Shown here piece by piece: positions 17,630-20,985 of a stretch of 64,000 bases of DNA (position 1 is its first letter; each line of letters begins with the position of its first letter). Source of the DNA: an uncultured Paracoccaceae bacterium (GTDB lineage Bacteria; Pseudomonadota; Alphaproteobacteria; Rhodobacterales; Rhodobacteraceae); the NCBI GenBank assembly GCA_947488605.1, contig CANKZJ010000001.1, forward strand, positions 620,001-684,000. Direction: 5' to 3'. Both the position numbers and the translations under genes were made by a program. Below the pieces are notes generated by a model, which saw nothing but the letters and a program-made list of their open reading frames with translations, was not told the DNA's origin and did not search any database.

Positions 17630-18012
17630 TCGTTTAGGGTGAGGCCGGCCAAGGCTGCATCAGAAAAAAGAGGGCGCTGTTCAGTATCACGGGCCATAGA
17701 CGCGGCACGACGGCCAGAGGGACGGCATCTTTCAAATCTTGGTCCACTTCTCACACTCTGCGCACCTAAGCATCTGTTTTGCGGTCGATCTGGGCGTTTG
17801 GGAAAAAATTTCCAGTGGGGGACTTGACGGTGGAAAAGCATGTTCCCACATCAACAACGGGGATGCCGATGGTGGGTCCCCAGGTAGTGGAAACAGGGCG
17901 ATTGGCTTATTGTGGTCGCCCGACGAACTGCCAATACGGTTTGTGACAGTCATTGTCGCGCCGATGGTGTGTGCGTTGCTTCCACCCTGCAACCCGCCTT
18001 TTGGACCTCTCC

Positions 18013-18110
18013 ACATAGCTGATCTATGTCCGCTGCTTTTCACAGCGCCCAGCGCTGTGCTCATCGCACCGGTCAACTGATCGGTGTCACTTGAGCTTTG
18101 AAAAGGAGGA
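18013..18110 (+). promoter_or_regulatory. candidate structured 5' UTR / ROSE-like RNA thermometer upstream of hsp20
   Basis: Consecutive hairpins ACATAG-CTGAT-CTATGT (18013-18029), ACAGCGC-CCA-GCGCTGT (18042-18058), CACCGGTC-AACT-GATCGGTG (18067-18086); CTTTTCA (18036-18042) complementary to TGAAAAG (18099-18105), which abuts and overlaps the AAGGAGGA Shine-Dalgarno. Confidence 0.5.
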
Positions 18111-18114
18111 CGAA

Positions 18115-18555
18115 ATGCTTCACACAACCTTTGCCCCTTTTGGGGCGACCGATCCGTTTGCAGACATGCGCCGGGTACAGGGCGAAATGAACCGTCTCTT
18201 CGATGGTTTCGGAACGTCACGCCAATCAACTGTTTATCCGCCGGTCAACTTTTGGGTGGGCCAAGACAGCATCGTGATGAGGGCAGAGCTTCCGGGTCTA
18301 TCCCAGGACGACATCGAAATTACCGTCAAGGACACGATGATCTCGATCCGGGGAAGCTATCCCGATCATGACGCAGACGAAGAGGCCGCGTGGCACCGTC
18401 GGGAGCGGCCAAAAGGCACGTTTTCGCGATCTGTCGAACTGCCCTTCCGTATTAATGCCGACCACATCGACGCAAGGTTCGAACACGGCGTGCTGACAGT
18501 GGAGATGCAACGACCGGAAGACGACAAGCCAAAGCGTATCAAGATCAAGTCGTAA
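18115..18555 (+). CDS. Hsp20/alpha-crystallin small heat shock protein (copy 1)
   Basis: AAGGAGGA then ATG at 18115; VMRAELPGLSQDDIEITV...FEHGVLTVEM. Confidence 0.92.
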   Translation: MLHTTFAPFGATDPFADMRRVQGEMNRLFDGFGTSRQSTVYPPVNFWVGQDSIVMRAELPGLSQDDIEITVKDTMISIRGSYPDHDADEEAAWHRRERPKGTFSRSVELPFRINADHIDARFEHGVLTVEMQRPEDDKPKRIKIKS

Positions 18556-18583: not shown

Positions 18584-18985
18584 ATGGCACAGGAACTGAC
18601 AACACAAGGTGGTCGCGACGTGGCCGCAAGCAACGGCGTGAGCAATCCGATTGAAAAAGCATTCACGCCTGCGGTCGACATTTTCGAGAAAGGTGAAGCC
18701 ACGGTCGTTCTGGCCGACATGCCCGGTGTCACCCCTGACGACATCGATGTGACACTAGAGCGTCAAGTGCTGACCCTGACCGGACGTGTCAAATCGCACG
18801 CGCCCGAGGGCTACCGTCGCCTGTCTTCGGAATATCGCGAGGGTGATTACAGCCGCGTCTTCACCCTGTCGGATGCGGTTGATCAGAAGAAGATCAAGGC
18901 CGATTTCAAGAACGGTGTGTTGCGTCTGGAATTGCCCCGCGCTGCCGAAGCCAAGCCAAAGAAGATTGCGGTGAAAGCTGCCTGA
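18584..18985 (+). CDS. Hsp20/alpha-crystallin small heat shock protein (copy 2)
   Basis: VVLADMPGVTPDDIDVTLERQVLTLTGRV...FKNGVLRLELPRAAEAKPKKIAVKAA. Confidence 0.92.
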   Translation: MAQELTTQGGRDVAASNGVSNPIEKAFTPAVDIFEKGEATVVLADMPGVTPDDIDVTLERQVLTLTGRVKSHAPEGYRRLSSEYREGDYSRVFTLSDAVDQKKIKADFKNGVLRLELPRAAEAKPKKIAVKAA

Positions 18986-19012: not shown

Positions 19013-19522
19013 ATGCAAATCAGCGATCTCATCCCTTGGGGTCGTGACAAGGGTAAGACCCCGGCGAACGACGACCAAAACTCTGACAACCCGCTCGCGT
19101 CGCTTCAACGCGACATCAATAGTGTCTTTGAAGACTTCTGGCAGCGGGTTGAGAGTGGCTGGAATGGTCGGATGAACCCCGTGGGCATGTTCGGACCCAG
19201 CACCGACGTTTCGGAAACGGACGAGAGTGTCGAGGTCGCCGTCGAACTGCCTGGAATGACCGAAGACGATATCGACATTTCCCTCTCAGGCGATGCGATG
19301 ACGATCCGTGGCGAAAAGAAGATCGAACATGAAGAAACGCGCAAAGGCGTCTACATGTCCGAACGGTCCTATGGGGCCTTTTACCGCACGATCCCTCTTC
19401 CGCCCGGCGTTGATACCGACAAGGCCGAGGCGAAATTCAAACGGGGTGTATTGACGGTTACCTTGCCAAAATCCGCAGAGGCCCAGGCAAGAGTTAAACG
19501 CATTCCGGTCCAAGCTGCCTGA
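19013..19522 (+). CDS. Hsp20/alpha-crystallin small heat shock protein (copy 3)
   Basis: VAVELPGMTEDDIDISLSGDAMTIRGEKK...FKRGVLTVTLPKSAEAQARVKRIPV. Confidence 0.92.
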   Translation: MQISDLIPWGRDKGKTPANDDQNSDNPLASLQRDINSVFEDFWQRVESGWNGRMNPVGMFGPSTDVSETDESVEVAVELPGMTEDDIDISLSGDAMTIRGEKKIEHEETRKGVYMSERSYGAFYRTIPLPPGVDTDKAEAKFKRGVLTVTLPKSAEAQARVKRIPVQAA

Positions 19523-19581: not shown

Positions 19582-20985
19582 ATGCCCGCTATTGCCTCTT
19601 ATCTTGGCCGCACACTGGCGGTTTTTTGTATTTTCACACTGTCATTCGTAGCCCCGGTCGCATCACAAACCGCAGATCGGCCTCTTTTCCAGAACGAGGA
19701 TGGGCTGCCAACGCTTGCCCCGCTTTTGGCTGAGGTCACACCCGCGGTCGTGAATATTTCGGTGGAAAGCCGCCAGACAGCCGAGATGAACCCGCTCTTT
19801 AACGACCCGTTCTTCCAGCGTTTCTTTGACATGCAACCGATGCCTCAACAGCCAATGCCGCGTCAGCAGATGAGCGCAGGATCTGGCGTTATCGTTGATG
19901 CCGCGCAAGGCTATGTGCTGACGAACCACCACGTCGTTGAAAATGGCGACCGGATCGTCGTGACGCTCAAAGACCGTCGCCAGTTTGATGCACAACTGAT
20001 CGGCAGTGACCCCGGAACCGATATTGCGCTGTTGCAGATCGACGCTGACGATATCTTGGCGCTGGACCTAGGAGACAGCGACCGGCTGCTTGTCGGTGAC
20101 TACGTGCTGGCCATTGGCAACCCGTTCGGGCTTGGCCAGACCGTGACCTCCGGCATCGTCAGTGCTCTGGGGCGCAGTGGTCTCAATGTGGATGGCTACG
20201 AGGACTTTATTCAGACGGATGCGTCGATCAATCCGGGCAATTCGGGCGGCGCGCTGATCACGTTGGATGGGCGACTTGTCGGGATCAACACCGCGATCAT
20301 CGCACCCTCCGGCGGCAATGTTGGAATTGGTTTCTCAGTGCCCGCGAACATGGCGCAAGCGGTCATGGACCAACTCATTGAATATGGCGAGGTTCGGCGG
20401 GGCCAATTGGGCGTAACAATTCAGGATTTCACACCTGATCTGGCAGATGCGTTAGGCATCGAAGCAGGCGTCGGTGCGGTCGTGACGCAGGTAGAGCCTG
20501 ACAGCGCAGCCGCACAAGCCGGGTTGCAACCCGGCGATTTGATCGTTGCTGTAGATGGCCGCTACATCGCGGGTTCCGCAGATCTGCGTAGTCAGATCGG
20601 ATTGAAGCGGATCGATAGTAATGTCGAGTTGCAGGTCATTCGCGACGGCGAAACGCTCACGCTCGACGTGACCTTACGCGGCGCGGGCGTGGTCACAGCC
20701 GTAACGGGTGACCGGGTTCTTGATCGGCTGTCGGGCGCGGAAATGCGTGAACTGCAACCGGGTGATCCATTCTATGGCGACCTATCTGGTGTGGTGATCG
20801 CAAGGCTTGATCCGGGCAGCCGGGCGTCGCGTTCGGGTCTGGAGGTTGGCGACATAATTCTCGCCGTCAACCGCGTGCCCGTTGCGTCGATGACCGATCT
20901 GCGGCAGCAACTGGCAAGCGTCGATGGCGCACTGGCCCTGACCGTTCAACGTGGTTCAACGCGGATTTTTCTGGTGATGCGCTGA
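19582..20985 (+). CDS. DegP/DegQ-type periplasmic serine endoprotease with two PDZ domains
   Basis: Signal peptide, catalytic triad contexts TNHHVV, DIALLQI, GNSGGALI; PDZ repeats; ATG at 19582 after GGAGACAG. Confidence 0.93.
   Translation: MPAIASYLGRTLAVFCIFTLSFVAPVASQTADRPLFQNEDGLPTLAPLLAEVTPAVVNISVESRQTAEMNPLFNDPFFQRFFDMQPMPQQPMPRQQMSAGSGVIVDAAQGYVLTNHHVVENGDRIVVTLKDRRQFDAQLIGSDPGTDIALLQIDADDILALDLGDSDRLLVGDYVLAIGNPFGLGQTVTSGIVSALGRSGLNVDGYEDFIQTDASINPGNSGGALITLDGRLVGINTAIIAPSGGNVGIGFSVPANMAQAVMDQLIEYGEVRRGQLGVTIQDFTPDLADALGIEAGVGAVVTQVEPDSAAAQAGLQPGDLIVAVDGRYIAGSADLRSQIGLKRIDSNVELQVIRDGETLTLDVTLRGAGVVTAVTGDRVLDRLSGAEMRELQPGDPFYGDLSGVVIARLDPGSRASRSGLEVGDIILAVNRVPVASMTDLRQQLASVDGALALTVQRGSTRIFLVMR

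Follow-up and report, generated by a model that had tools for sequence, protein, structure and literature searches.

What kind of element precedes the three-hsp20 operon in the window (the whole 64,000-nt stretch of DNA analysed here), and is it a ROSE-type RNA thermometer? The first-pass annotation had proposed a ROSE-like thermometer at 18013–18114; that segment is indeed structured, but it is the variable 3′ end of an element that measures ~257 nt in all, which is very probably a conserved structured RpoH leader (Table 1). We consider it a real, new variant of the ROSE-type hsp20 leaders with a possible thermometer function. The overall explanation that we favour, an RpoH-driven structured leader that is a ROSE-related long-range thermometer variant, comes close to an even chance without quite reaching it.

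Table 1. Features of the hsp20 leader and operon, in positions of the window.
Feature	Position	Strand	Evidence or remark
RpoH (sigma-32)-type promoter, CTTGAC-N16-CCCACAT	17823–17851	+	similar promoter, similarly spaced from P1, in 10 homologous leaders and L004
Inferred 5′ untranslated leader, ~257 nt	17858–18114	+	promoter spacing; leader lengths 241–277 nt in 11 loci
P1, 5′-terminal hairpin GGGGAUGCCG-AUGG-UGGGUCCCC, bulged G	17859–17881	+	93% of cells paired (11 sequences); partial ROSE_3 match
Conserved core CAGGUAGUGGAA, 5′ strand of long-range helix P3	17881–17892	+	alignments A3, A4
P2 hairpin GGGCGAUUGGC..GUGGUCGCCC	17896–17921	+	5 of 10 pairs change on both sides
P3 3′ strand (UUCCAC and CCUG)	17980–17989	+	5 of 9 P3 pairs change on both sides
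Conserved ACCUCUCC element; may pair with P1 5′ strand (alternative helix PA)	18005–18012	+
Variable 3′ domain with the three hairpins first described	18013–18114	+	folds; not conserved in relatives
Hairpin 1, ACATAG/CTATGT	18013–18018/18024–18029	+
Hairpin 2, CACAGCGC/GCGCTGTG	18041–18048/18052–18059	+
Hairpin 3, CACCGgtca..tgatCGGTG	18067 to about 18086	+
Anti-SD strand CUGCUUUUC	18033–18041	+	8 of 9 Watson–Crick with 18100–18108, G35–G106 mismatch; homologous segments in L037, L101 (MAFFT)
SD-side strand GAAAAGGAG	18100–18108	+	overlapped by SD AAGGAGG, 18103–18109
hsp20, first of three	18115–18555	+	Pfam HSP20, E 2.3e-21
Second hsp20	18584–18985	+	Pfam HSP20, E 1.2e-18
Third hsp20	19013–19522	+	Pfam HSP20, E 1.3e-22
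DegP/DegQ-type PDZ serine protease, last gene of apparent operon	19582–20985	+	Pfam Trypsin_2 and PDZ

The leader starts ~155 nt upstream of the hairpins that had been noticed, and its conserved part is located there. Because the promoter pattern matches four times across the whole 64-kb window, the evidence for an RpoH promoter is conservation and not the motif match: CTTGA-N15-18-CCCANNT stands at a near-constant distance from the 5′ hairpin in 11 loci and in L004, the leader of another (ibpA-type) hsp20 gene of the same genome. The alignment of leaders has CTTGAC-N16-CCCACAT, then 7 nt, then GGGGATGCC, and from this spacing the transcript would be expected to start at ~17855–17860, giving the leader length of ~257 nt; the ten homologous leaders measure ~241–277 nt. 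The conserved sequence thus points to transcription of the operon by RpoH.

The 5′ domain (17859–18016) has a covarying structure common to 11 leaders of three-hsp20 operons in the Rhodobacterales, with P1, P2 and P3 in register 5′ of the operon, and no Rfam family matches its fold. An upstream block is conserved at 89.6% over 48 nt in L038 and at 79.7% over 64 nt in L040. A covariance model, R1, built from nine leaders detects two outside its training set, in Aestuarium zhoushanense (94.9 bits) and Limimaricola variabilis (75.1 bits), both on plasmids and each 5′ of a three-hsp20 operon. In the 11-sequence alignment 81.8% of cells are paired and 20 of 41 pairs change on both sides (43 cells against 17.7 expected, reached by none of 500 shuffles, with all slid controls far lower), figures that lean towards the model to which this alignment was fitted; P1 and the conserved core were also aligned by MAFFT without structure. 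For PA, 80.6% of cells are paired across the 11 leaders against 38–58% when slid (24 of 500 shuffles as high), and its covariation is modest, with two pairs changed on both sides. The energy model prefers PA over P1 in the window leader and P1 in some other leaders. A second promoter at ~17985–18013 (TGCAACCCGCC..CCTCTCC) was set aside, since pairing in P3 and PA explains the conservation there better.

Strong R1 matches are found in 3 of 397 genomes of the family (Rhodobacteraceae), exclusively 5′ of the three-hsp20 operon, and scores above 30 bits occur at hsp20 copies only. Matches elsewhere are weak, one of them (L068) looking by eye like a ribosomal-protein coding region, and a separate sRNA or genome-wide element was rejected. 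The operon's first protein is encoded in 6 of 57 species of the window's genus (E <= 1e-30); the leader was not found in the other inspectable carriers of that genus, two of its copies are on plasmids (one predicted conjugative), and protein and leader are accessory. Searches in the genera of L041 (Roseovarius) and L039 (Sulfitobacter) yielded no additional strong leader; a short match of 25.9 bits lies at 1501–1578 of L106, from another genome of L041's genus. Seven loci (L009, L010, L042, L045, L046, L048 and L049) have related hsp20 operons without the leader, and in these a gene ending ...DETYPFGL* (or close) stops ~40–100 nt 5′ of hsp20. At L037 (801–2780, − strand) and L101 (789–2630, − strand) a divergent FtsH-type protease gene adjoins the leader, suggesting a protein-quality-control island.

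The three hairpins that had been described within ~75 nt upstream of hsp20 are present at 18013–18087, and CTTTTCA (18036–18042) is, as reported, the exact complement of TGAAAAG (18099–18105). Hairpins 2 and 3 are compatible with this long-range helix, and together they are predicted to form one compact three-way junction. The 75-nt segment 18034–18108 folds at −35.2 kcal/mol (z = −4.43), a stability reached by none of 200 shuffles; with SD and start held fixed, none of 300 shuffles folds as well as the actual 3′ segment. As a recognisable whole, 18013–18114 was not found in any close relative, and the exact 3′ hairpins are not conserved. These would be features of chance hairpins in an ordinary upstream region, as would an SD complementarity reached by about 3% of shuffles; yet the folding energy lies beyond all shuffles, and the conserved promoter and covarying structure directly upstream place the region inside a structured leader, so that we give chance little credence.

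The SD helix of the favoured reading is longer than the first-pass annotation saw, running from C33–G108 through U34–A107, G35 facing G106 and C36–G105 into UUUUC/GAAAA (base numbers follow the last two digits of positions 180xx and 181xx). The minimum free energy (MFE) structure contains U34–A107, the facing G35 and G106, and C36–G105; C33–G108, read from the sequence, could extend it. ROSE cores are arranged as UGCU/AGGA with two Gs facing each other, and CUGCUUUUC/GAAAAGGAG appears to resemble this across its G–G mismatch. Its 8/9 Watson–Crick complementarity is mildly unusual (63 of 2000 shuffles reach it), and a duplex-energy test of long-range SD complementarity gave p = 0.155. By eye, L037 (UUUCCAU/AUGGAAA) and L101 (CUCCUUUC/GAAAGGAG) have aligned counterparts, with compensating differences in the anti-SD segments (U–A to C–G in L037, G to C in L101), and L040 sets CUGCUU against AAGGAG. 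The helix is recognisable in just 2–3 of 10 relatives, and alignment by eye gave no counterpart in L038, L102 and five more distant leaders. CUCUCC was rejected as a general anti-SD, appreciable pairing with the SD being predicted in L039 only. The proposed masking of the SD by a long-range helix thus stands in that the helix can form and is part of the MFE structure, but it is kept in few relatives and the occlusion is not statistically exceptional.

ROSE elements are defined by U(U/C)GCU paired to the SD in a 3′-proximal hairpin (PMC3669281). The canonical SD-proximal consensus had been reported missing, and the last 110 nt of the leader in fact contain no T[TC]GCT; the variant CUGCU (18033–18037), which differs from the motif solely at its first base, C33, able to pair with G108, is predicted to pair with AGGAG over ~65 nt. 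An Infernal search with the Rfam ROSE models, the check suggested at the outset, gave no match at gathering score in the window or in eight homologous leaders. Rfam gives no more than a partial match to ROSE_3 (12.9 bits, E 5.2), and this coincides exactly with P1, the counterpart of the stable 5′-proximal hairpin I of ROSE elements.

The leader shares with ROSE_3 (RF02523) and ROSE (RF00435) its position 5′ of a small heat-shock protein gene behind an RpoH-type promoter, an SD helix with G opposite G, and a 5′ hairpin with a bulged G (consensus CGGGAUGCCGAAGUCGGGUCCCG against GGGGAUGCCGAUGGUGGGUCCCC). It differs in its ~158-nt 5′ domain (P2/P3/PA) outside the ROSE models, in a long-range anti-SD instead of an SD-proximal U(U/C)GCU hairpin, and in its length of ~257 nt against ~90. 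The description as ROSE-like therefore holds for setting, promoter, 5′ hairpin and a ROSE-core-like (C)UGCU/AGGA(G), but the defining motif and an Rfam match are missing. These two absences, with an SD partner ~65 nt away and not in a short 3′ hairpin, led us to reject a canonical ROSE thermometer, which we regard as very improbable despite the hsp20 leader, the RpoH promoter and the ROSE_3-like hairpin I that speak for it.

L004 offers a comparison within the same genome. Its leader (~1286–1375) has a very similar promoter (CTTGA..TTCCCACAT) and P1, but is 90 nt long and ends in UAUCGCUU..AAGGAU with a textbook ROSE core (UAUCGCUUAAGAAAAGGAU), which is absent from the window leader. The region 1250–1375 of L004 is a canonical ROSE-type leader missed by Rfam at gathering score. 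Plasmid-borne three-hsp20 operons of Ensifer and Bosea (L103–L105) have an RpoH promoter, a similar P1, a similar leader length and a related operon whose first protein is 42–45% identical to the window's, but in the middle of their leaders they carry a ROSE-like core, AUCGCUU..AAGGAGGAU, followed by an upstream AUG/GUG, and R1 does not match them. This arrangement is seen from 1327 on in L103, 1330 on in L104 and 1352 on in L105; in L103 and L104 the upstream start shares the reading frame of hsp20 (the annotated L104 protein is an extended one), and in L105 it opens a 46-residue ORF. The short ROSE-like thermometers of Pseudomonas ibpA likewise combine a stable 5′ hairpin I with an SD in a downstream helix, but measure 61–62 nt, with two hairpins and U(U/C)GCU in the SD hairpin (PMC3669281). 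Our literature search found just the ROSE elements predicted for ibpA and hspD in a Roseobacter-clade strain (PMC3230580). On the Aestuarium plasmid of L101, an Rfam ROSE match of 49.9 bits (585–676, − strand) lies 5′ of a hypothetical protein gene.

The weak ROSE_3 match is worth keeping because P1 is the part shared with L004 and with RpoH leaders. A search of the Alphaproteobacteria for GGATGCCG-N3-6-CGGGTCC led to 28 examined loci. With a 4-nt loop, 6 of 11 lie directly after an RpoH-type promoter, 5′ of hsp20 (L115, L117, L128, L133) or clpB (L132, L134; N-terminal sequences, by eye), and with other loop lengths the promoter is found in 0 of 17 (Fisher p 0.0012, for a loop-length split chosen after the matches had been seen). 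At L132 and at L107/L134, which are the same locus, the hairpin follows RpoH-type promoters ~50 nt 5′ of clpB-like genes. L107 and L108 also give weak ROSE_3 matches, the latter 5′ of a gene with a ClpB-like start.

This distribution bears on the main rival, an mRNA-stability leader in which the 5′ hairpin and compact fold shield an abundant heat-shock mRNA against 5′-end-dependent decay and the SD helix is incidental. It would account for P1 preceding clpB and hsp20 genes elsewhere, for conservation at the 5′ end and not in the SD region, and for SD occlusion that does not exceed background. Hairpin I of ROSE-like elements is described as stable and as not responding to temperature; what it does is only partly understood, and a role in mRNA stability has been suggested for it in the Pseudomonas ibpA leaders (PMC3669281). 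A 250-nt leader, however, far exceeds the needs of a protective hairpin, and P2, P3 and PA are conserved as well; we consider the stability reading rather unlikely, if to be taken seriously.

The SD of the first hsp20 is the 8th least accessible of 31 genes in the window, with 41 of 300 shuffles as closed, and Fisher combination over the 11 leaders was not significant for complementarity (p = 0.12) or SD accessibility (p = 0.62); in L047 and L043 the SD is predicted open. The RNAfold temperature check that had been proposed predicts no melting between 20 and 50 °C, with the SD helix still closed at 50 °C (P 0.98). The accessibility and duplex tests are largely failed by canonical ROSE controls too, L004 alone passing for accessibility (4 of 150), and most of them show no predicted melting either, so these statistical and melting negatives weigh little and speak neither for nor against a thermometer.

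Some relatives are predicted to respond. For L038 the model puts P1 at 0.94 at 15 °C and at 0.06 at 45 °C, with SD accessibility climbing from 0.07 at 20 °C to ~0.5; L102 follows a similar trend, and in both leaders the predicted SD pairing when cold is with the 5′ domain, with partial release on heating. These shifts, and the support for both P1 and PA across 11 leaders, are what a bistable switch would produce, in which GGRGAUG pairs locally (P1) or with CAUCUCC ~150 nt downstream (PA) and so sets SD access, the P3 3′ strand in some relatives either closing P3 or capturing the SD. Against this, PA covaries modestly, and the window leader is predicted to adopt PA at all temperatures, its SD pairing with neither P3 nor CUCUCC; we think such a switch improbable. 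Hardly more probable is a broader proposal, that alphaproteobacterial RpoH transcripts (hsp20, clpB) share a 5′-terminal hairpin tag, GGAUGCCG-N4-CGGGUCC, here built into a 257-nt bistable leader whose 5′ strand picks the local hairpin or the distant CAUCUCC, tying SD access to the condition of the mRNA 5′ end in a new kind of heat-responsive leader that is not ROSE.

The comparison of leaders supports the promoter, the conserved 5′ domain, a P1 common to ROSE_3 and RpoH leaders, and the lack of the literal ROSE motif; the transcript start, SD occlusion in the cell and a temperature response we infer. On the ROSE-related thermometer reading, 17858–18114 would act in cis, as the long structured 5′ leader of an accessory operon for chaperones and a protease (three hsp20 genes and degQ). 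Its conserved 5′ domain (P1 or PA, P2, P3) probably shields the 5′ end and guides how the leader folds, and its 3′ domain would hold the SD in the helix with the ROSE-core-like G–G mismatch. That helix would most likely hold translation down until it is opened by heat or some other destabilising condition, adding a thermometer layer to transcriptional control by RpoH. Temperature regulation of translation through the SD helix is the most likely single mechanism, albeit one that we place somewhat below an even chance.

The leader enlarges the small set of long structured heat-shock leaders, with a covariation-supported model absent from Rfam. Since a canonical ROSE leader and this divergent one occur in one genome, the two can be compared in one host. 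The locus also pulls apart two components that tend to be treated as one in ROSE elements: a 5′ hairpin that accompanies RpoH promoters, those of clpB included, and a hairpin that melts at the SD.
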